Shown one piece after another: positions 705-53,223 of a DNA stretch of 64,000 nucleotides. The translations under genes and the position numbers were made by a program. Below the pieces are notes generated by a model. It saw only the letters and a list, made by a program, of their open reading frames with translations, searched no databases and was not told the origin of the DNA. Position 1 is the first letter of the stretch, and every line of letters starts with the position of its first letter. Source of the DNA: Spartinivicinus poritis (GTDB lineage: Bacteria > Pseudomonadota > Gammaproteobacteria > Pseudomonadales > Zooshikellaceae); the NCBI RefSeq assembly GCF_028858535.1, contig NZ_JAPMOU010000008.1, positions 1-64,000 on the forward strand. Reading direction: 5' to 3'.

Positions 705-3563
705 ATGAATAATAAGATTGGATATATCGCCCTTGTCAGTTTGTTCATTGCATTAGGGGCTGGCTACTGGTTTAAACATCGACTGGGCTATGAAAACAAC
801 TTGCATGCTGATTTATTAATGCAGGTTGAACGAAAAATGAGTTTGTTAATGGCTCAAGATCTTCAACTATCACCCAAGCAACAGCGTAATATTAATAGCC
901 AAAGTCGGCAGTTGCAGGAACTGCAGGAGGTCATTAGCCAATATCAGCTGCATGTAAATGATTTAGATCAATGGCATGATAAAGCCAAGCACCAGCAATT
1001 TTTAACAGCTAGCTATGAGTTTTTAGAGCAATATAAGCGTTTTCATAATTTGAAGCTTGATATTGACCAGGCGTTTTTACAATACTCTCAGTTAAGTACC
1101 CAACTCAAAGGCCATAAACAGCTGGCACCCTATATTGTTCAGCTTTCAAGTAGCTTATTATTATACCAGTTACGTTTAATGCCTGCAGCTAAGCAGCAAG
1201 CACAACAGGTGACTCAATTTTTAACCCGCTCTGCGGATGAGCCAGCATTTCGTTCATTATCCAATCGCTTGTGGCAAATGGCTTCTTATACGGGTTTTTT
1301 GCTTGAAAATTTAGAGTTACAAGAAGCTCAATTAGTTAAGTTGAAAAATAATTCGATGATGAATTTGTTAGATCAAATTCTGAGTTACCATGATGAAAAC
1401 CTACAATACTATCAGCGTTTAGAAACAATAATAGTCAGTGCATTTATTGTTGCCATATTAACGTTAGTGTTATTGATTATTTTACGGAAAAATCGTGAGC
1501 TGGCACAAAAAAGCTTTCAAGCAGAAGCCGCTACTGAGGCAAAAAGCCATTTTTTAGCCAACATGAGTCATGAAATACGAACGCCAATGAATGCTATTCT
1601 TGGTTTTACAGAGTTAATTTTGCAGACCAGGCTGAATGAAAAACAGGTCGACTTTATACGGAAAATAAAAATATCTGCAGAGTCATTATTGCTTATTATT
1701 AATGATATTTTGGATTTTTCTAAGATTGAAGCAGGTAAGCTAGAAATTGATCAAGTTCCTTTTGACTTAACTAAACAACTAGATATTTTATGTAATATGT
1801 TTGCTCGTCGGTGTGAGGAAAAACAAATTGAAATGATCGTTAATGATAAAACAGATTTATCTCATCAGCTGATTGGCGATCCTTTAAGGTTAAACCAAGT
1901 ACTCATCAATTTAGTTAGTAATGCGATTAAGTTTACTGATCAAGGACAAGTAGTTGTTAAAATAGAAAAATATACTAAACCAATACATGATAAGGAAAAC
2001 CAAAACGATAAATATAGTAATGAAAATAGCGCTTATTTCCAGTTTTCTGTTAGTGATACTGGAGTAGGTATTCCGCTAGATAAGCAACATAAGCTATTTC
2101 AAGCGTTTGCTCAAGCCGATAGTTCCACTACCCGTCAATTTGGCGGAACGGGGTTAGGTCTAAGTATCTGTAAAAGGCTAGTTGAGTTAATGGGGGGATC
2201 GATTAGTGTAACTAGTGAGCCTGGTAAGGGGAGCGAGTTTAGTTTTTATTTACCATTAGAGATGGAGGTGACAAAAGTAATCAGTGAATTAGCGCCGAAA
2301 TTATCAGATAAACATATTGTTCTGGTAGATGACAATCCTTTGGTTACTGGGGTTGTGGAGCATATGTTAAAGTCAACAAAAGCAGATGTCATAACATTTA
2401 ACTCTGCGGCAGCTGCCTTGACTTATTTGGTTAAACAGCCAATGTGTGATTTACTGATTATTGATTGGTGTATGCCAGAAATGAATGGCATTGAGCTGGT
2501 TAAGCATTTACGGTTAATTCCAGTTTTTCAGCGGTTACCCGTTGTGGTTATAACCGCCTTTGGTAATGAAAAAGTGCATCAACAGGCTGCACAAGTAGGC
2601 GCAAAGGATTTTTTGGTGAAACCCTTCACTACTTATGGACTTTGGCAATCCATTACTCAAGCGATTGGCTTATCCCCTAAAGCACAATTAAGTCAGCCAA
2701 AAGCCAAACAAATGAAAAACTTGCAAGGCATAAGAGTATTATTAGTTGAAGATAATAAAATTAACCAGTTATTGGTAAAAGAGTTTTTAAATGATACTGG
2801 TGTAGCATTATCTTTTGCTTTCAATGGTCAACAGGCAGTTACAGCGTTAGAAAAGGAATCATTTGATGTAGTACTTATGGATGTACAAATGCCAGTGATG
2901 GATGGCTATGAGGCTACTCAAAAAATACGTCAAGAGCATTGTTCTGGTTCGCTACCTATTATTGCAATGACTGCTAATGCAATGAAAGGTGATAGAGAAC
3001 GCTGTTTAGCTGCGGGCATGAATGATTATTTGTCTAAACCAATAAAAAAAGATCAATTATTGGAAGTGTTGAAAAAGCAGTTAGCCGTTGTATTTCAAAC
3101 AAAGCCACAGCCAGCCCTTAGTCATGATAAGCACCATAGTCAAAATAGTGGTAAGAACAGCCCTACAGCTGAAACCTATTTTAGTAGCTCAAGTATCGAA
3201 ATTGGTGAGTTATATCCACTGATTGATGTAGAAGATGCGATTAGTCGGCTGGCAGGTGATCAAGGCATGTATTGCAATCTACTGAAAATGTTTACTGCTG
3301 ATTATGCGCAAGTGGCTGAAAAAATTGTTGATAATATCCACGCTAATGCTTTATCTGAAGCCGTAGATGATGCTCACTCATTGAAAGGTGTTGCTGCAAA
3401 CCTTTCTGCAATACAATTACAACAGGTAACGTCTATTATTGAGCATCAGTTAAGAGATGAGCAGTTACCGAGTGAGGCTACTTTATCAGCTTTGATTGAA
3501 ACTAGCAGGAAAACCGTACAGGCAATTAATCAATATTGCTGCCAGCAAGAAATTGTTCATTAG
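705..3563 (+). CDS. hybrid sensor histidine kinase with two receiver domains and Hpt
   Basis: This 952-aa membrane-bound phosphorelay kinase has the BarA/ArcB-like order TM - sensor - TM - HisKA - HATPase - REC - REC - Hpt. TM helices lie at about 5-23 and 243-261 and enclose a ~215-residue, mostly helical periplasmic sensor region without a domain I recognise. The HisKA phosphoacceptor is His289 (MSHEIRTPMN). The N-box is at 402-411, the G1 box DTGVGI at 451-456 and the G2 box GTGLGL at about 481. Receiver aspartates are Asp587 and Asp726, and the Hpt histidine is His891 (AHSLKG). All relay residues are present, so an Asp-His-Asp relay to a separate, unlinked regulator is likely. The ATG at 705 follows a GAGG motif. 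No cognate regulator is adjacent, so the signal is unknown. Confidence 0.93.
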   Translation: MNNKIGYIALVSLFIALGAGYWFKHRLGYENNLHADLLMQVERKMSLLMAQDLQLSPKQQRNINSQSRQLQELQEVISQYQLHVNDLDQWHDKAKHQQFLTASYEFLEQYKRFHNLKLDIDQAFLQYSQLSTQLKGHKQLAPYIVQLSSSLLLYQLRLMPAAKQQAQQVTQFLTRSADEPAFRSLSNRLWQMASYTGFLLENLELQEAQLVKLKNNSMMNLLDQILSYHDENLQYYQRLETIIVSAFIVAILTLVLLIILRKNRELAQKSFQAEAATEAKSHFLANMSHEIRTPMNAILGFTELILQTRLNEKQVDFIRKIKISAESLLLIINDILDFSKIEAGKLEIDQVPFDLTKQLDILCNMFARRCEEKQIEMIVNDKTDLSHQLIGDPLRLNQVLINLVSNAIKFTDQGQVVVKIEKYTKPIHDKENQNDKYSNENSAYFQFSVSDTGVGIPLDKQHKLFQAFAQADSSTTRQFGGTGLGLSICKRLVELMGGSISVTSEPGKGSEFSFYLPLEMEVTKVISELAPKLSDKHIVLVDDNPLVTGVVEHMLKSTKADVITFNSAAAALTYLVKQPMCDLLIIDWCMPEMNGIELVKHLRLIPVFQRLPVVVITAFGNEKVHQQAAQVGAKDFLVKPFTTYGLWQSITQAIGLSPKAQLSQPKAKQMKNLQGIRVLLVEDNKINQLLVKEFLNDTGVALSFAFNGQQAVTALEKESFDVVLMDVQMPVMDGYEATQKIRQEHCSGSLPIIAMTANAMKGDRERCLAAGMNDYLSKPIKKDQLLEVLKKQLAVVFQTKPQPALSHDKHHSQNSGKNSPTAETYFSSSSIEIGELYPLIDVEDAISRLAGDQGMYCNLLKMFTADYAQVAEKIVDNIHANALSEAVDDAHSLKGVAANLSAIQLQQVTSIIEHQLRDEQLPSEATLSALIETSRKTVQAINQYCCQQEIVH

Positions 3564-3583
3564 CCGACAGTTGGTAATAATGG

Positions 3584-3626
3584 TAAAAAAGTAGCGCCGT
3601 TATGGCTTAAGCACGGCGGCTACTTT
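3584..3626 (-). terminator. terminator overlapping the 3' end of the DUF99 gene
   Basis: AAAGTAGCGCCG (3588-3599) pairs with CGGCGGCTACTTT (3614-3626) with one bulged base. On the minus strand the stem is followed by six T, so it terminates the DUF99 gene, whose last codons lie inside the hairpin. It may also act on the convergent kinase transcript. Confidence 0.7.
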
Positions 3627-4194
3627 CCCCAGTTTTTATTGCTGCCCCTATTAAATGTGCAATTCGTAGCGCTTCAGGTACATGCCCTTGATCTGTCAAT
3701 TTAGCTAAAGCGTGTGCTGCTGTATCTGGCGTAGTACCCTGTACTTGAAAATAAAAAGGCGCTACGGCATGAATTGCTCCAGCGTTTTGGATTAGCTGCC
3801 AGCGTGTCTCATAGTTAGATAGATTCTGTAGTGCTTGTTTAATTGCCACTAAGTCTGGCTGTTTTCTCATTACAGCAATACAGGGACGTTCAAGCTCATT
3901 GGCTAAACGAGGTAAGTCGATAATATTAAAGCCACCAAAGGCAATACCATCTAGCAAAACAACATTGATTTGTGGGTAAAATTTACTCGCTTTTATGCAA
4001 TCAATTAGAACTTCAGTTGAATCAAAACCATCGCGGGTAATGGTTTGCCATAGCATACCTTCAAAACGTGTATTGTTGCAGATGATGCCACTGATATTCA
4101 CCTGCTCATGTGGGTGTTTACCAAAAGGAGCGTCATCGAACCCAATGGCACGAATTTGTTTGTTTAATGAGATGAGTTGTTCAAGCGTTTTCAT
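3607..4194 (-). CDS. DUF99 family protein (endonuclease V-like fold)
   Basis: This 195-aa protein resembles the DUF99 family. It opens with a conserved IRAIGFDDAPF block, followed by a VLLDGIAFGGFNIID block near the middle, both typical of DUF99. Members are mostly archaeal with scattered bacterial ones, are related in fold to endonuclease V, and have no established physiological role. I chose the ATG at 4194; a TTG nine codons upstream (4221) keeps the frame, and neither has a clear ribosome-binding site. It is transcribed convergently with the kinase at 705 and divergently from the CrbS-like gene. Confidence 0.75.
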   Translation of the reverse strand: MKTLEQLISLNKQIRAIGFDDAPFGKHPHEQVNISGIICNNTRFEGMLWQTITRDGFDSTEVLIDCIKASKFYPQINVVLLDGIAFGGFNIIDLPRLANELERPCIAVMRKQPDLVAIKQALQNLSNYETRWQLIQNAGAIHAVAPFYFQVQGTTPDTAAHALAKLTDQGHVPEALRIAHLIGAAIKTGESSRRA

Positions 4195-45252: not shown

Positions 45253-45518
45253 GAAAAGCATCCTTGGTTTGTCGTGTCAGCTTATAAGATAATCTAGCGT
45301 GGCTCAATAGAGCATAGATGATGAAAACCAGGGGATAAACTACATAGTAGAGGCAACTATATTAAAAGGCAGCCTTTGTATGACCAGAGTTAATATAAAC
45401 GACATGATAAGATTATGTTACGACAACAGCAGCTTATGAGCTACTTAAAATAAAGTGATAATTTAATTATTTTATCTGGATTATATAAGCATCACTTATC
45501 CTATACCCATCATGGATC

Positions 45519-45572
45519 ATAGTGGTTTGGTACAGATATCAGTTTTATACTGATAGTGGTTTTATACAGATA
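45519..45572 (+). promoter_or_regulatory. paired 20-bp direct repeats upstream of the JmjC cluster
   Basis: ATAGTGGTTT-NNT-ACAGATA occurs at 45519-45538 and 45553-45572 (18 of 20 bases equal), with a 34-bp period. Between and overlapping them is the inverted repeat TATCAG-N7-CTGATA (45537-45555). It lies 220-270 bp upstream of the small-protein start codon. A binding site for a regulator is the simplest reading. The rest of 45253-45791 shows no gene. Confidence 0.5.
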
Positions 45573-45791
45573 GTTATTTTGTTGTAACATAGCGTAACCA
45601 TGGTTGGTTTTATATTGACGACTAAATAATAGTAAACTAACTTTGTTGCCCTGCTTGTTTGTATTGCTTTGTGCAAGTAATGCCTTACTTAGATAAGTCC
45701 TGCATTTTAAATGTAGAATTTAGGTGATATAGGGTGTATAGGGTAGATATAGTAGTTTAACATCATGACTAAGAATGGAGGCTTAAAACCA

Positions 45792-46172
45792 ATGAATGAT
45801 AGTCAGTCAGTGTTTGGTAATGAGATAGAGTTAGACGGTGTGCTTTATGTATCTGTAAATTTTCTAAAGCAATATCCCGAGTATTTGGATAATGAATTTA
45901 ATGACAATGTTGATGCGGCAAATGATGCTGCAGTAAGTATAGAAGAAGGAATGCCAGAGGAGGGTGATGACTCACCCAGTGTCCATAAAAGTGAGATTGT
46001 ACTGAATGGTAGTACTTATTTGGCAGCACCTATTTTGCGAGCTAATCCCAATTATGTTGAGTTGAAATATAACCAGCAGATAGAAGTTGCTTTGCCGCAG
46101 TTCATTCCCAACAATGTACTTGATGAAGGTAAAGTGGCGACCTCATTCTATCGTCGTCGTCGATCTATATAG
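45792..46172 (+). CDS. small duplicated protein with Arg-rich tail, candidate substrate/precursor of the JmjC enzymes
   Basis: This 126-aa protein has no recognised family. Residues 6-38 and 63-95 are an internal repeat (pattern SV-x3-EI-x-L-x-G-x2-Y...L-x3-P-x-Y...), with a 57-residue period. The linker (39-62) is strongly acidic. The C-terminus ends SFYRRRRSI. There is no signal peptide or TM helix. GGAGG at 45777-45781 lies 10 bases before the ATG at 45792; an earlier in-frame ATG at 45765 has no such site. It is the first gene of the cluster, before a strong hairpin and five JmjC-like domains. A modified substrate or RiPP-type precursor is my inference; an adaptor protein is the alternative. 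Confidence 0.6.
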   Translation: MNDSQSVFGNEIELDGVLYVSVNFLKQYPEYLDNEFNDNVDAANDAAVSIEEGMPEEGDDSPSVHKSEIVLNGSTYLAAPILRANPNYVELKYNQQIEVALPQFIPNNVLDEGKVATSFYRRRRSI

Positions 46173-46218
46173 AAGAAGCTCTATTTTATCGTAAATAATT
46201 GTTAAAAATGCCCTTATG

Positions 46219-46243
46219 CCGCTAAAAATGTAATTTTTAGCGG
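46219..46243 (+). terminator. strong hairpin between the small gene and the first JmjC gene
   Basis: CCGCTAAAAAT and ATTTTTAGCGG form a perfect 11-bp stem with a 3-nt loop, 46 bases past the small-gene stop codon and 95 bases before the next start. TGTCTAT follows rather than a clean T-run. It may be a partial terminator or RNA-processing/stability element that raises the level of the first message relative to the enzymes. Confidence 0.6.
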
Positions 46244-46338
46244 TGTCTATAGTTGGTTGAAGACGACCCCCTATTTATAAACATACCCATAGTAAATTTT
46301 TTTAGTGAAAGCTCGTCATACGATTTGGAAAAACTGAC

Positions 46339-47409
46339 ATGCAGTATAAGGAAATTATTGAGTTTGACACAATCAGTGCCGATGAATTTTATGAAAATTA
46401 CTTTCTAAAAAATACGCCATGTGTTGTTAGAAAAGGAGCCACTCACTGGCAAGCCACGAAAGTGTGGGAGGATGATAACTATTTGCGTAAAATAGCAGGT
46501 AATCGCCAAGTGTTTCAGACCACTTCAGTGCGAGGTGATTTAGGTTTTGATCACCAGTCGCCAATCAGTCAGGTACGTTTTTCGGATTTTTTGGGTGTTT
46601 ATCAAGAAAATCCACGCCTTTATGTAAATGACTCCAATATGCCATCTATTTTAGTACAAGATTTAGGCACTCACTCTATGCTGGAAGGATTTAAAAAAGT
46701 CGAGCCTTATGAAATGCGAGTGGGGATGTTTATGGGGGCAGGAGAGCAGCTGGCACCACTTCATTATGATGATGAAGAAAATATTTATGTGCTGATTAAT
46801 GGGCAGAAAGAATTTTTATTGTTTGATATTGCCGATTTTAACAGTATGTACCCTTGTGATAATGCATTTTTACCTGATTTTTCCCTAGTAGATCTTGATA
46901 ATATTGATTATAAGCGGTTTCCTGCTTTAAAAGCAGTAAGCTGCTATCAAGTGAAGCTTAATGCAGGGGATATATTGTTTGTACCTGGGTATTGGTGGCA
47001 TGCAGTAAAAGCACTTGGGCGCTCAATCGCATTATCCTGGGTGCGTCTGGATCGGCGTGGTCAGTTTATGGCATTTGAAAAATTGGTGCGTAATGATGTA
47101 TTTCCTACGGATAAAAAATGTTTGGAAAATATGTTAGATAATCCCGATGAGACAATTATCAGTACATGGGCTGCACTAGGTACAGACTCTATTTTAGAGA
47201 ATGATTTGTTTGAAACCTACCTTAGATTAAGTTTATTGTATGTCCATTCTAGCCAGCAGAAAGAAGATGTATACCCTATAGAACAAGAATTCCAGCGTCT
47301 GCGTCAGCCTGTGTTTGATATATTACGACGCAATGAGCATAAATATAGCTATCCTGTTCTGTATTTAATGCAAAATTTCTTTCGTGTCAATCTTGGTTTA
47401 TTTAATTAA
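46339..47409 (+). CDS. cupin-8/JmjC-like Fe(II)/2-oxoglutarate oxygenase 1
   Basis: This 356-aa protein has the FIH/JMJD5-like cupin-8 pattern. The N-terminal blocks are NTPCVVRKGATHW and the DFLGVYQ region. The iron motif is H142-Y-D144 (PLHYDDEEN), then NGQKEFLLFDI and the distal ligand His221 in GDILFVPGYWWHAVKALG. Such enzymes hydroxylate protein side chains using 2-oxoglutarate and O2. The C-terminal ~100 residues are a helical extension. It is the first of four consecutive paralogues, with the next gene starting five bases after its stop codon. The substrate is not known from sequence. Confidence 0.85.
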   Translation: MQYKEIIEFDTISADEFYENYFLKNTPCVVRKGATHWQATKVWEDDNYLRKIAGNRQVFQTTSVRGDLGFDHQSPISQVRFSDFLGVYQENPRLYVNDSNMPSILVQDLGTHSMLEGFKKVEPYEMRVGMFMGAGEQLAPLHYDDEENIYVLINGQKEFLLFDIADFNSMYPCDNAFLPDFSLVDLDNIDYKRFPALKAVSCYQVKLNAGDILFVPGYWWHAVKALGRSIALSWVRLDRRGQFMAFEKLVRNDVFPTDKKCLENMLDNPDETIISTWAALGTDSILENDLFETYLRLSLLYVHSSQQKEDVYPIEQEFQRLRQPVFDILRRNEHKYSYPVLYLMQNFFRVNLGLFN

Positions 47410-47413
47410 AATC

Positions 47414-48379
47414 ATGCTAACTAAAATACCTATTGCAATAGATGAAGTAACAGACATACAGCCTGCAGCATTTAAAAGCCAGTATGTAGATGGCCATCGA
47501 CCATTGATTATCCGTGGAGGAGTGAGTCACTGGCCAGCCATGCAGTGGAACAGTAATGAATATTTGCTAAAAATAGCAGGTGACCAGAGAGTGAAAGTAG
47601 ATGTTTTTCCTTTATCTAAACAGGGAAAAATACTATTAGAATCTGGTAGTGAAGAAGTAATGTCAATAAAAGACTTTACTATGAAGTTTTTTCAAGAAGA
47701 CTGCTATCATTATATATCGGATCAAAATTTACCGCCACCGCTTTATCAAGATCTAAATGAGCACTGTGTTTCCTCCGTTTTTCCTGTTGAGCGGCGGCGG
47801 ACATTTTGGTGGGGTAAAAACGGTCAGAAATCATTCCTTCATTATGATGATAATGAAAATTTTATGTGTCAGTTTGATGGGGAGAAGGCATTTTTACTAT
47901 TTGATATTACAGATTTTGACTATTTGTACCCCAAAGATGAAACTGAATATCGCTCCTTAGCAGATTTGGAACAGCATGATTCTAACCAATTTCCTCTTTT
48001 GGCAAAGGCTACCCCTTATGTAGCACGTATAAGCCCAGGAGATGTACTTTATGTACCCTGTTATTGGTGGCACCAGGTTAAGTCCTTTGGCCGTAATATA
48101 GCCGTCTCTTACATTATTAATGAGTCGATGGAGCAGCGGGTACGAGTAACAGGTAAGTTAATTGAAGCAGGGGCATTGCCAGTATCAGATTCAATTCGAG
48201 ATGATCTTCTTAATATTATTGGATTAGATGAAACGCCTTCCCGGCGAAATGCATTGTTAAAGAAGTATCATAGAGAATACCAACAGCAACAAGGGAAATC
48301 CTATTATCCTCATAGTATTTTTCACCGCCTAATTGAAGAAAACTTATTAGATATTCTTTATGGACATGCAACTTACTGA
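47414..48379 (+). CDS. cupin-8/JmjC-like oxygenase 2
   Basis: This 321-aa paralogue of the preceding gene has DGHRPLIIRGGVSHWPAM near the start. The iron motif is H143-Y-D145 (FLHYDDNEN), followed by GEKAFLLFDITDFDYLYP and distal His220 in GDVLYVPCYWWHQVKSFG. The triad is complete. I chose the ATG at 47414, four bases after the previous stop codon; an upstream GTG at 47384 overlaps gene 1 in another frame. Little ribosome-binding sequence is visible, so translation may be coupled to gene 1. Confidence 0.85.
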   Translation: MLTKIPIAIDEVTDIQPAAFKSQYVDGHRPLIIRGGVSHWPAMQWNSNEYLLKIAGDQRVKVDVFPLSKQGKILLESGSEEVMSIKDFTMKFFQEDCYHYISDQNLPPPLYQDLNEHCVSSVFPVERRRTFWWGKNGQKSFLHYDDNENFMCQFDGEKAFLLFDITDFDYLYPKDETEYRSLADLEQHDSNQFPLLAKATPYVARISPGDVLYVPCYWWHQVKSFGRNIAVSYIINESMEQRVRVTGKLIEAGALPVSDSIRDDLLNIIGLDETPSRRNALLKKYHREYQQQQGKSYYPHSIFHRLIEENLLDILYGHATY

Positions 48380-48402
48380 ACTCACAATAGGGAGTTATAT
48401 TG

Positions 48403-49350
48403 GTGTTAAGAGTCAGTGATTTAAATATTAAGGGATGTAAGCTGGAACCTGTAGATAGTGTTAACACTATTTCAGCGAGTACATTTAATCGAGATTATAT
48501 CGCTCAAAATCGGCCATTATTGATCAAAGGAGGGGTTGCTCACTGGGATGCGCTGCCATTATGGAATAATGAATACTTAAACAGAAATGCCGGCCATAAT
48601 GTAGTTGATATAGAAACATCCCGCGATCAATTTGAAGGGCGTTTATTTGATGATGCAGAAAAAGTATGGATGCCTTTTTCTCGTTTCCTTGAGCGTTTAA
48701 CATTGCCATCAGGGGAAACAGACTATTTTGTAGGAAGCTGGTTATTTCCTACGCTTGCTGCTGATGTACCAGATATTTCCGCCTTTAAAGCATTTAACAT
48801 GGCTATAAAGCGTCGGATGATTATGTCTCGTGGTGGAAATAGGATTGCGTTGCATTATGATTGGTATCAAAATATGTTGTGTCAGGTGGCAGGATACAAG
48901 CGCTTGGTGTTAATAGATATTGTTGATACTCCATTTCTCTATCCTCTCAGTAGCCCTGTTAACTACTCACCTGTTAATGTACAAGATGTTAATTGGAGCA
49001 CTTATCCTGAGTTTTGTAATGCAACCATTTTTCAAGCTGACATAGAGCCTGGTGATGTATTGTATATGCCTATGCTTTGGTGGCATGCTGTTGAAAGTAT
49101 TGATCGCAATATAATGATTTCCCAATCATTTTATGATACTGATAGAGACTTACTATTTATTCTGAAAAAAATGCTAGCACTTGGACGTTTAAACCTTGCA
49201 GAAAAACAGATGAATGATGTATGGGCTGTATTAGAAAGTGATCTCAATGATAACGAGAAAATACGTGCTGTTCGTCGTCAGGCAAATAACCAGTCTTTAG
49301 GTGACGTGAAAAGAATATTTGCTCATCGTCAGTTGATATTTAAAAAGTAA
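48403..49350 (+). CDS. cupin-8/JmjC-like oxygenase 3
   Basis: This 315-aa enzyme has the same plan as the two before it: NRPLLIKGGVAHWDALPLW, H151-Y-D153 (ALHYDWYQN), GYKRLVLIDIVDTPFLYP and distal His228 in GDVLYMPMLWWHAVESID. The iron triad is intact. The acidic run after HYD found in enzymes 1 and 2 (DDEEN, DDNEN) is DWYQN here, so the substrate groove may differ. The start is the GTG at 48403 (or TTG three bases earlier), behind GGGAG at 48390-48394. Confidence 0.82.
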   Translation: MLRVSDLNIKGCKLEPVDSVNTISASTFNRDYIAQNRPLLIKGGVAHWDALPLWNNEYLNRNAGHNVVDIETSRDQFEGRLFDDAEKVWMPFSRFLERLTLPSGETDYFVGSWLFPTLAADVPDISAFKAFNMAIKRRMIMSRGGNRIALHYDWYQNMLCQVAGYKRLVLIDIVDTPFLYPLSSPVNYSPVNVQDVNWSTYPEFCNATIFQADIEPGDVLYMPMLWWHAVESIDRNIMISQSFYDTDRDLLFILKKMLALGRLNLAEKQMNDVWAVLESDLNDNEKIRAVRRQANNQSLGDVKRIFAHRQLIFKK

Positions 49351-49379
49351 AAAGTGTATGTTTGAAGTGTATTGATAAA

Positions 49380-51095
49380 ATGAAAAATAAAAAAAGTAAC
49401 ACAGGGAATATCGTTAGTAATAAAGGCCTGGATATTCTCAATTGCCTGTATGGTGGTCATGAAATCTGCCGTATTGACATGCCAGTAAAGGGAGACAGGC
49501 TTACTCAACAATACCTTCTTCCCCGCCGACCTGTGATTGTGAGAGGGATAACGACACAATGGCCTGCATTAGAAAAATGGAGTTTTGAATGGTTTGAAAA
49601 ATGCTTTGGTAATATTTTTACTAATATGTTTGCCAATGGTAACGAAGGAGAAGCTAGGCAAGTACGGCTTAAGCATTTATTTAGTCGGATGACGAGTGGC
49701 GAAACTTTATATTCTAGTCTTTATGTAAGGGAAATGCTGCCTTTAATTAGCCAAGATTATCCTATAGAGAATAGTTTCTTGGGTGATCACCAATTCAACT
49801 GGTTGCTTGATTTGCCAAAAACTATTCATGGTGAGATGAATGTAATATTCATTGGTAATAAAGGCACAGGCATTAAAAACCATCAAGACAGTATGGGAAC
49901 CCATCTGTGGTCGGCACAAATCTGTGGGCGTAAACGTTGGTTGATCAGTCCTCCTGAAATGATGCCTTATTTGGCTGAAGGGGAAGCAAGCTGGTTAGAA
50001 AGAGAACAATCAATAGCAAAATACCCTGAGTTTGCTGAGGCTGCCTGCTTGGATTTTGTGCTAGAACCAGGTGAAATTTTATTTTTACCTGTGGGCTGGT
50101 GGCATCAAACAATACTATTGGATGATTCTATTTCCATTACGCAAGACATCGTTAATGAATCTAATATTGATCATTTTGAGTATGAGTTAGAGCGCAGTTA
50201 TGGAGTAGATCCAAAAATTGCAAACTTTCATAAAGCTAGTACAAATTTTCGGTGTAAGTGGCAGCAGCAATTACCTAAGCGGGCTACCCAATCCATTGAG
50301 CGTATGAGTGGTGATATTAGCTTTGATCAATTCCTGGAAAACTATCTTATCCCTCATAAGCCTGTTGTATTACAGGGCTGTATTGATGAGTGGCCTGCAC
50401 TGTCAAAATGGAATGTGGAATACTTTAAGAAGCATTTTGGTAGTGTATTTATTCAATACTTTCAAAACCGTGATGATCAAAACAAACATATACGGTTAAA
50501 GAATTTTTTTGAGACACCATTTGATGTCCCTCATTATGCTATGTGGTGCTTAGATGACTTTGTGAGATTACTTAAGGATGATTTTAAGCCCTTATCATTA
50601 TTAGATAATAGCGAAAAAGACTGGACATTTGATTTACCTGAAAAAGAGCGTAATGCACTTACATGGCTATTCATGGGATTAAAAGGTTCTGGTATTGGTA
50701 ATCACAGTGATCGTTTGGGTCAACATGTTTGTTCTGCACAAATTGTTGGTCGTAAGCGTTGGCTGTTACACCCTCCTGAGGATTACCGGTGGCTGAATTA
50801 CAGTGATAAAAGTGTTGATTTGGTTAACCCAGACTATATAAACTACCCACTTTATAGAAATGCTTCACCCGTAATAGATTTTATATTAGAGCCGGGTGAA
50901 GTACTTATTTTACCGGATGGCTGGTGGCATCAAACAGTAATTTTAGAAGACTCTATTTCTTTAAGTCATGACTTTGTTAATGCTTCAAATATTGACTCAT
51001 TTATTAAGCGTTTGCGTGAAAGAAAAGGAGATGAATATTTAAAAACAGTAGAAATACAACCAATATTAAATAAATGGAAAGTATACCCAATGTGA
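49380..51095 (+). CDS. tandem double JmjC-domain oxygenase (JMJD6-like motifs)
   Basis: This 571-aa protein contains two complete cupin-8/JmjC domains in tandem. Domain 1 (about 30-280) has H168-Q-D170 (IKNHQDSMGTH), CGRKRWLISPPE and distal His242 (LPVGWWHQTILLDDSISI). Domain 2 (about 300-560) has H442-S-D444 (IGNHSDRLGQH), VGRKRWLLHPPE and His517 (LPDGWWHQTVILEDSISL). The GRKRW..PP and GGWWH-type blocks are closer to JMJD6-type enzymes than to oxygenases 1-3. Both sites look active. The ATG at 49380 is chosen over a TTG at 49362. The last codons lie inside the terminal repeat of a family A MITE-like element. Confidence 0.85.
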   Translation: MKNKKSNTGNIVSNKGLDILNCLYGGHEICRIDMPVKGDRLTQQYLLPRRPVIVRGITTQWPALEKWSFEWFEKCFGNIFTNMFANGNEGEARQVRLKHLFSRMTSGETLYSSLYVREMLPLISQDYPIENSFLGDHQFNWLLDLPKTIHGEMNVIFIGNKGTGIKNHQDSMGTHLWSAQICGRKRWLISPPEMMPYLAEGEASWLEREQSIAKYPEFAEAACLDFVLEPGEILFLPVGWWHQTILLDDSISITQDIVNESNIDHFEYELERSYGVDPKIANFHKASTNFRCKWQQQLPKRATQSIERMSGDISFDQFLENYLIPHKPVVLQGCIDEWPALSKWNVEYFKKHFGSVFIQYFQNRDDQNKHIRLKNFFETPFDVPHYAMWCLDDFVRLLKDDFKPLSLLDNSEKDWTFDLPEKERNALTWLFMGLKGSGIGNHSDRLGQHVCSAQIVGRKRWLLHPPEDYRWLNYSDKSVDLVNPDYINYPLYRNASPVIDFILEPGEVLILPDGWWHQTVILEDSISLSHDFVNASNIDSFIKRLRERKGDEYLKTVEIQPILNKWKVYPM

Positions 51096-51207
51096 AGGGT
51101 TTTTAGGTGAGGCCATCAAGTGACGAAGCCCCATGAGCCTATATTAATAGGTGATTGGGGTGAGGAATGAAGATAACAAAACCTAAAAATGATTCGCGAC
51201 GGGTATA
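51082..51207. repeat. palindromic MITE-like element, family A, copy 2
   Basis: This 126-bp relative of 19383-19509 has terminal repeats TATACCC...TTTTTAGGT and ACCTAAAAATGATTCGCG...GGGTATA. The central hairpin reads CCCCA...CCTAT-ATTA-ATAGG...TGGGG. The stem sequence differs from copy 1 but pairing is kept. Its left end encodes the last residues and stop codon of the double JmjC gene and separates it from the oxidoreductase gene. Confidence 0.8.
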
Positions 51208-51257
51208 TATAAAGATAAGTCTATGTTCAAAGATGAAAGTTTAAAAGGTGTTGTAAA

Positions 51258-52385
51258 TTGAATGTAGCTATAATAGGTGCTGGCATTTATGGATGCCATT
51301 TGGCATTAAGTTTAAAAAATAATAATATCAATATAGATCTATATGATATGGCTGATGATATATTTGCCGGTGCATCAACGTATAATTCATTTAGAATACA
51401 TAAAGGCTATCACTATCCACGTTCAAGTAAAACTAGAAATCTTTGTAAAAAAGATGAAGCGGAGTTTGTTGCTCGCTATGCTGAGTTAGTACAGCCTGAA
51501 TCGACGAACCCAAAGATATTTTGTGTTGCAAGTGATAGCTGTACACTCATTGATTTTGAAACAATGAAAATTATCATGAGGGGTGCTGGACTACCTTTTG
51601 ATGAGTTGTCTTTACAGCAACTTAAATACTATGGTTTTGAAAATATTGAAGGGGGCTTCATCGTAAATGAGTCTATATTGCTTGTGGATAAGGCAAAAAA
51701 ATGGTTTAAGGATCAATTAGAAAAAGCTGGGGTTTGTTTAAAACTGAATACTTACCTCAGTGAGGTTCAGCAGAGGTCTGCTATTGAATTAGAGGTTGCA
51801 GGAAAGGTATATGACTTTGTAATTAATTGTACATATAACCAGTCCATCCATTATAACTCACTAATGTATAAATACCATTATGATTTATGTTTTTCTTTAG
51901 TCGTTGCCAGTAAGCTTAATGAAGTATATAAAAAGCCATATAGTTTTGGAATATTTGATGGGGCCTATCCAAGTTTAGAGCCTTTTGGTTATAATGATTT
52001 GCCAGATAAATATGTCAGGTATACAGGAACTAATTTGTTTCAACTATTTCATGTTAAATATACTAGCATTAAAAAATACAATAACATTCATGAGGCAAGA
52101 AAAGCATATAATAAGCCGCTTAGTTCATCAGAGCTAAAGGCTGTTACAAAAAAAATGTTAGATCATACCTGCTATTTTTACCCAAAATTTAATCATGAGT
52201 TTGAAATTATTGATTATACTCTTTCTTTAAAAACAAAAGTTGATGACCTTTCAGATAATCGGCCGCTCATTGTTTGTCAGGATTTCTCGAAACATCGCCG
52301 GCTAATTCAAGTTTTTTCATCCAAGCTGACTTCTGTCATAAGTGCAGAGAGAGCTGTTAAGAATATAATTACTAAAGAATACTAA
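51258..52385 (+). CDS. FAD-dependent oxidoreductase (DAO-like)
   Basis: This 375-aa flavoprotein has an N-terminal dinucleotide-binding motif GAGIYG at 7-12 with the acidic residue after the second strand (DLYDMAD). The DAO-type block FRIHKGYHYPRS is near 50, a second nucleotide-contact segment (YDFVINCTYNQS) lies mid-chain, and C-terminal LSLKTKVDDLSDNRPLIV completes it. It probably oxidises an amine or alcohol. The start is a TTG at 51258 with AAAAGGTG upstream; no in-frame ATG precedes the FAD motif. Codon use is more A+T-rich than in the flanking core genes. Involvement in the JmjC pathway is inferred from position and strand. Confidence 0.75.
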   Translation: MNVAIIGAGIYGCHLALSLKNNNINIDLYDMADDIFAGASTYNSFRIHKGYHYPRSSKTRNLCKKDEAEFVARYAELVQPESTNPKIFCVASDSCTLIDFETMKIIMRGAGLPFDELSLQQLKYYGFENIEGGFIVNESILLVDKAKKWFKDQLEKAGVCLKLNTYLSEVQQRSAIELEVAGKVYDFVINCTYNQSIHYNSLMYKYHYDLCFSLVVASKLNEVYKKPYSFGIFDGAYPSLEPFGYNDLPDKYVRYTGTNLFQLFHVKYTSIKKYNNIHEARKAYNKPLSSSELKAVTKKMLDHTCYFYPKFNHEFEIIDYTLSLKTKVDDLSDNRPLIVCQDFSKHRRLIQVFSSKLTSVISAERAVKNIITKEY

Positions 52386-52617
52386 ACTTTATGCCTATAT
52401 GAAATCACTGTAAGAGGCACCTATAGTTAAATGTAACGATTAGAAAGTTACTGGATCAGCTTATAGTACCTTGGTACTGTAAGTGTGCTTATTTTATTAG
52501 ATGTTTTGAGTTTCTTATTGATAATAAGTTGGTTATAGGTATGATAGTCGACTGTTTGAAAAAAGGGTTAGTCGGTAAAGCCAGTACTTGATTAAGTGGA
52601 AGGACTTGAAAAGTCAA

Positions 52618-53223
52618 ATGAAAAAAGCCCCAATACAGCTTGCAGATCGTCCTGAAAATCCTGATTTATATTGGGATTTATCAGCACTACATAATAAGAA
52701 AAAAGCAATTAGCTTTTTTAAGCATGTTTCTACAGGCTTTTGTGTTTATAGCCCTTCCGTTGCAAAGCTATATAGTAATTTTGAAGTGATACTGTCAAAT
52801 ATGGATCGAAGTGGTTTGATCGTGTTGCCTAATCCTTATGCATTTCATGATACGTTTAACCGAGTCAGCGACGTTTCAATTAAACAAACAGGTATTTCGT
52901 TATTTCCTGGAGAGGCGATTAATAGGGCAGGGTTTATCGTTAGCATTCCTGTTGGTAAGCAACGCAGAAATCATCATTTAGAGCTAGAAGTTGCAGTAGG
53001 ATTTCTCGATAGACTATATAAAAAGCGTTATGGCACGCCGTTTCTGCCTGTATTGGTTAATGGTGACTTAAAAGAATTTAGGTCACAAACGCCTTATTTA
53101 CACCTACATCGATTTGACCCCAAATCACTTACCGAGTTTAGTGAATTTGAACGTAATGATATCTGCAGTACGATTAGGGATCGTTTTTCAGATATTATGG
53201 TTAACAGTGCATACATTAAATAA
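52618..53223 (+). CDS. unrecognised 201-aa protein at the end of the JmjC cluster
   Basis: The protein is soluble, mixed alpha/beta, without signal peptide or TM helix. Motifs include RPENPDLYWDLSALHNKK near the start, SGLIVLPNPYAFHDTFNR in the middle and TPYLHLHRFDP towards the end. I cannot assign a family. The ATG at 52618 lies 13 bases after GGAAGGA; a TTG at 52588 is in frame. The 232-bp gap from the oxidoreductase gene contains no repeat or gene. It shares strand and A+T-rich composition with the oxidoreductase. Confidence 0.6.
   Translation: MKKAPIQLADRPENPDLYWDLSALHNKKKAISFFKHVSTGFCVYSPSVAKLYSNFEVILSNMDRSGLIVLPNPYAFHDTFNRVSDVSIKQTGISLFPGEAINRAGFIVSIPVGKQRRNHHLELEVAVGFLDRLYKKRYGTPFLPVLVNGDLKEFRSQTPYLHLHRFDPKSLTEFSEFERNDICSTIRDRFSDIMVNSAYIK

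Follow-up and report, generated by a model that had tools for sequence, protein, structure and literature searches.

A small protein with an arginine-rich tail travels with four cupin-8/JmjC oxygenase genes: a candidate RiPP-like unit in Spartinivicinus poritis

A 64,000-nucleotide stretch of the Spartinivicinus poritis genome (the window) contains a small precursor-like gene followed by four cupin-8/JmjC oxygenase genes, and these same genes are kept together across three distant lineages. Judged from sequence, they probably constitute a RiPP-like unit in which cupin-8/JmjC oxygenases alone would oxidise an arginine-rich C-terminal core, with the repeats of the leader as the docking site. Features of the locus are as follows.

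45323–52485 (approximate ends), no strand assigned: stretch missing from a same-genus genome, G002 (blastn of the G002 region against the window)
45792–46172, + strand: small precursor-like protein, 126 aa (ORF and homologue comparison)
45795–45920, + strand: first repeat unit of the putative leader (internal alignment)
45966–46091, + strand: second repeat unit of the putative leader (internal alignment)
46125–46169, + strand: C-terminal tail ending RRRRSI, the proposed core (RRR invariant in 7/7 homologues; fast-changing in Moorena copies)
46219–46243, + strand: perfect 11-bp stem-loop, after the small gene and before the oxygenases (G001 and Moorena have stem-loops of different sequence in this position)
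46339–47409, + strand: cupin-8/JmjC oxygenase 1, c1 (Cupin_8 E 1.3e-39)
47414–48379, + strand: cupin-8/JmjC oxygenase 2, c2 (Cupin_8 E 1.6e-40; start set by sister-species alignment)
48400–49350, + strand: cupin-8/JmjC oxygenase 3, c3 (Cupin_8 E 3.1e-42; exact start uncertain)
49362–51095, + strand: double-domain cupin-8/JmjC oxygenase 4, double (Cupin_8 E 1.9e-51 over two stretches; exact start uncertain)

RESULTS

Linkage of the small protein and the oxygenases

Homologues of the small protein were searched for in 1,486 genomes and in one GTDB contig scan. Counting the window's own, the search identified seven genes at six loci in six genomes: the window's genome, a sister species of the same genus (G001), three Moorena-family genomes, and one 10-Mb high-GC MAG. 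Among 96 genomes of relatives, the small protein was present in two (the window's own and G001), and no homologues were found in plasmids and viral contigs. A weak match in one further genome (G928, E 0.007) forms part of a 274-aa frame. The initial annotation had proposed testing whether homologues of the small protein always neighbor multi-copy cupin-8 genes, and this held throughout: all seven genes adjoin a cupin set, and each of the six loci carries orthologues of all four cupin genes. The reverse search with the double cupin, a single genome scan, returned three loci, every one with a small-protein gene. Apart from the precursor and the cupin set, no biosynthetic gene is common to all six loci.

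Gene order is small-c1-c2-c3-double in the window, G001, and Moorena, and small-c1-c3-double-c2-c2 in the MAG, where two consecutive c2-type genes (L008:12582-14569) bring the cluster to six cupin domains. Cupin-8 homologues on plasmids were considered as further members at four places and rejected. The Eleftheria match is the end of an NRPS gene, the Streptomyces hirsutus homologue lies in a cluster where no ribosomal precursor is apparent, the Nostoc homologue belongs to an NRPS/PKS locus, and the Rhizobium homologue is an isolated cupin amid transposase genes.

The small protein

The small gene has a GGAGG motif 10 nt upstream of its ATG and a dN/dS of 0.07 against the sister species, indicating strong purifying selection. 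Its product is acidic (21 D/E versus 9 K/R), and its two halves genuinely repeat one another, with a Smith-Waterman score of 74 against a shuffle mean of 22.5 and no equal score in 1,000 shuffles. Most invariant residues sit in the repeats, for example in YPEYLDNE and NPNYVELKY. The protein ends in RRRRSI in the window, RRRSI in G001, and RRRRRS in the MAG, and RRR is invariant across the alignment of all seven homologues. The ribosome site, the dN/dS value, the shuffles, and the RRRRSI end thus bear out the original description of a 126-aa acidic protein with an internal repeat and an Arg-rich tail. The start originally given for the system, position 45519, is upstream of the small gene and non-coding. 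No family was matched in Pfam, NCBIfam, PHROGs, or PDB sequences, and confidence in the predicted structure was too low to help (mean pLDDT 45).

Stem-loops are present behind the small gene in the window, G001, and Moorena. Their sequences are unlike each other, and the structure in the window (46219–46243) is possibly an attenuator or an mRNA stabilizer. With z-scores of only -1.2 to -3.5, they do no more than hint that precursor and enzymes are expressed unequally.

The cupin-8/JmjC oxygenases

Four consecutive cupin-8 genes with five domains, each with an H-x-D motif and a distal H, had been described at this locus, and comparison with Pfam agreed: all four genes exceed the curated Cupin_8 cut-off (E 1e-39 to 2e-51). 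The H-x-D motif, the distal H, and a 2-oxoglutarate lysine are invariant in the five domains. The lysine follows the Asp by 13 residues in oxygenases 1–3 and by 15 in the double oxygenase, spacings that match those in FIH/JMJD5 and JMJD6, respectively. Across the whole 6.83-Mb genome of the window's organism, these four genes are the only Cupin_8 matches at E <= 0.001.

Orthologue identity per cupin gene is 51–60% with Moorena and 41–55% with the MAG, while the paralogues in the window are 24–32% identical to each other. Because identity between orthologues exceeds that among the paralogues, the four genes have distinct roles that have been kept. Their dN/dS values against the sister species are 0.10–0.21. 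The nearest solved relatives are JMJD5 (an arginyl hydroxylase) and FIH for oxygenase 1, and JMJD6 and JMJD5 for the double oxygenase. JMJD5 is a frequent best solved match for cupin-8 domains, and kinship says little about which residue these oxygenases target.

Borders of the unit

In G002, which lacks the cluster, blastn placed the counterparts of window positions 45322 and 52486 on either side of 278 bp. A stretch of ~7.2 kb (~45323–52485) is therefore considered to be inserted in the window. Its G+C is lower than that of most of its neighborhood, and it holds the small gene, the four cupin-8 genes, and an FAD oxidoreductase gene (51258–52385). G001, whose cluster proteins are 82–88% identical to those of the window, has the small gene and four cupin genes followed by a gene for a 201-aa protein, with no FAD gene between.

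The initial annotation had counted the flavoenzyme and the 201-aa protein as parts of the system, and neither was retained after comparison with G001, G002, Moorena, and the MAG. The FAD gene lies inside the inserted stretch, yet is absent from the G001, Moorena, and MAG clusters. The 201-aa gene (52588–53223) lies beyond the end of the insertion and stands beside the empty site in G002, where there is no cluster.

Two further observations concern this border. A terminator-like hairpin (52459–52484) is located behind the FAD gene at the extreme end of the inserted stretch; terminator-like sites here are no commoner than in shuffles. The 201-aa protein, which has no recognised family, has a homologue of 31% identity encoded on a plasmid of Teredinibacter purpureus, where it directly follows a VRR-NUC gene and is near a DNA methyltransferase gene.

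Conserved leader and variable tail

In the Moorena copies, dN is 0.007–0.033 over the first 114 residues versus 0.065–0.42 over the last 15, a tail comparison of 15 codons in four related copies. A pattern of conserved leader and variable core is thus present in this small sample. An unbroken run of four to five arginines is found in the tail of every Moorena copy. One Moorena genome has two tandem precursor genes (L010:2765-3160 and 3425-3817) with different tails (FRVRRRRSL versus FGRRRRSL). The proposal that the small protein is a dedicated, RiPP-like substrate of the oxygenases is well supported, because every homologue adjoins a multi-cupin set and, further, because the leader is conserved and the tail variable.

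Protease-like and exporter-like genes beside the cluster

The statement that no protease or exporter gene is present was correct for the window's locus, where the unit has no exporter gene, but does not extend to the relatives, in which a pappalysin-like protein and ABC transporters adjoin the cluster. The pappalysin-like protein (457/454 aa) is encoded beside the cluster in Moorena and the MAG, and the versions from these two lineages are 31% identical. It contains HELGHxFQLxH, a Met-turn-like NxMS/T, and then FTxxQAxR. Its match to the ulilysin profile has an E value of 6e-5 for the whole sequence, with a weak best single stretch (i-Evalue 0.028), and its match to Peptidase_M43 (E 0.06) is below the cut-off. 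HExxHxxQxxH is found in three of four copies and HDxxH in one. The exception is a Moorena copy (L009:9075-10448) with HDLGH in place of the HELGH of the other three; this copy may lack activity or be atypical, or the difference may come from a sequencing error. Confidence in the predicted structure was too low to help (mean pLDDT 38). No homologue of this protein was found in the whole genome of the window's organism. Pappalysins favor cleavage before basic residues (Arg/Lys) (PMC6949598).

Two ABC genes in the MAG start ~20 bp past the end of the last cupin gene and score 261 and 253 bits against the cyclic-peptide-export model TIGR01194, just under the cut-off of 286. In Moorena, an MsbA-like ABC gene is convergent with the pappalysin-like gene.

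DISCUSSION

Proposed mechanism

What remains of the original reading is the small protein, the oxygenases, and their proposed relation as substrate and enzymes; the FAD and 201-aa genes fall away. The small protein would be a ribosomal precursor whose two repeats form a conserved leader for recruiting the oxygenases and whose Arg-rich C-terminal tail is the core. The four Fe(II)/2-oxoglutarate oxygenases, with five active sites, would oxidise this core, and hydroxylation of arginine side chains is the most likely reaction. In the relatives, the putative pappalysin-like protease encoded beside the cluster would then cut just before the arginine run, with the ABC transporters as exporters of the peptide. 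For the window's organism, cleavage and export would either need genes elsewhere or not happen. Oxidation of the small protein, arginine as its site, the position of cleavage, export, the product, and any bioactivity are all things that we infer from sequence. Arginine is suggested as the site by the kept arginine run, by the Arg-directed protease family in the relatives, by kinship with JMJD5 and JMJD6, and by the precedent of biphenomycin-like peptides. None of these is proof, and the highly conserved leader repeats could themselves be modified.

Alternative explanations

Modification of the repeats is central to an alternative in which the small protein at its full length is the product or functional protein. 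The oxygenases would hydroxylate conserved positions of the repeats that are rich in Asp/Asn/Pro/Tyr, and the arginine tail would serve just for binding or targeting. Asn/Asp residues are targets of several JmjC enzymes, FIH among them, most of the invariant residues sit in the repeats, and the unit in the window lacks a protease and an exporter. We nevertheless regard this as unlikely, since repeat conservation is equally expected of a leader, the tail changes fast while the leader is conserved, and protease-like and exporter-like genes stand beside the cluster in relatives.

The small protein might instead be an adaptor, inhibitor, or regulator, with the oxygenases acting on another peptide, a protein, or a small molecule. 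Linkage alone is no proof of a substrate relation, and some cupin-8 relatives sit in non-ribosomal or other small-molecule clusters. However, the two tandem precursors of one Moorena genome, which differ in their tails, and the fast-changing tail fit a substrate better, and the six loci share no further biosynthetic gene, which leaves this explanation a little less likely again than a full-length product. That the genes are mere neighbors in an inserted island, with no shared pathway, would be consistent with the lower G+C of the inserted stretch and with the unshared FAD gene within it, but is already contradicted by linkage kept in three lineages at 41–60% identity and by purifying selection on the small gene and all of the cupin genes. 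We consider it highly improbable.

Novelty and significance

Oxidation of the Arg-rich tail by the linked oxygenases is thus the reading that we prefer. RiPPs and JmjC oxygenases are both known kinds, the latter mainly as single modifiers of cellular proteins, and the unit described here is possibly a new class of RiPP. Such a class would be made by cupin-8/JmjC oxygenases alone: a two-repeat leader would guide dedicated oxidation of several arginines of the run, and a protease of an Arg-directed family would release the peptide. We put this forward tentatively. In the open-access papers searched, we found no description of such a unit, nor any peptide produced solely through the action of JmjC-type oxygenases on a single precursor. 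The unit combines five active sites with one substrate and naturally varying tails, and could serve as a testbed for how JmjC enzymes divide neighboring residues among themselves. The two-repeat leader could also be used in genome mining to find a family of oxidised, arginine-rich peptides from bacteria of marine and other origin.

Comparison with known systems

The biphenomycin-like RiPPs (pbs, bpm) also start from a small ribosomal precursor, and their cupin/JmjC-type hydroxylase acts on a former arginine: the cupin-like PbsQ and the JmjC-type BpmG hydroxylate Arg-derived ornithine (PMC12257519). These systems differ in adding an MNIO, a recognition-element protein, an arginase, and a B12 radical SAM enzyme, where the clusters of the window and its relatives have four cupin-8 genes instead; none of these four additional components was recognised among the neighboring genes read or scanned. 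The alphaKG-HEXXH RiPP hydroxylases (PflC, PosC, and BpmH) oxidise several neighboring residues near the C-terminus of their ribosomal precursor, as proposed here, and can shorten the backbone (PMC12636437). They differ in having a zincin-like fold, in being one enzyme rather than five domains, and in acting on a Gln string rather than an arginine run.

The 457-aa protein of the relatives, found in Moorena and the MAG and not in the window's genome, shares HExxHxxxxxH, a Met-turn-like segment, and a following FTxxQAxR with the pappalysins ulilysin/LysargiNase and mirolysin. It differs from them in being a distant match only and in having Gln in place of the usual Gly of the motif (HExxHxxGxxH).

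JMJD5, JMJD6, FIH, and the RoxA-type protein hydroxylases resemble the oxygenases of the window in sequence family, iron ligands, and lysine. Those proteins are single enzymes with cellular protein targets, whereas here four specialized paralogues travel with one small protein.
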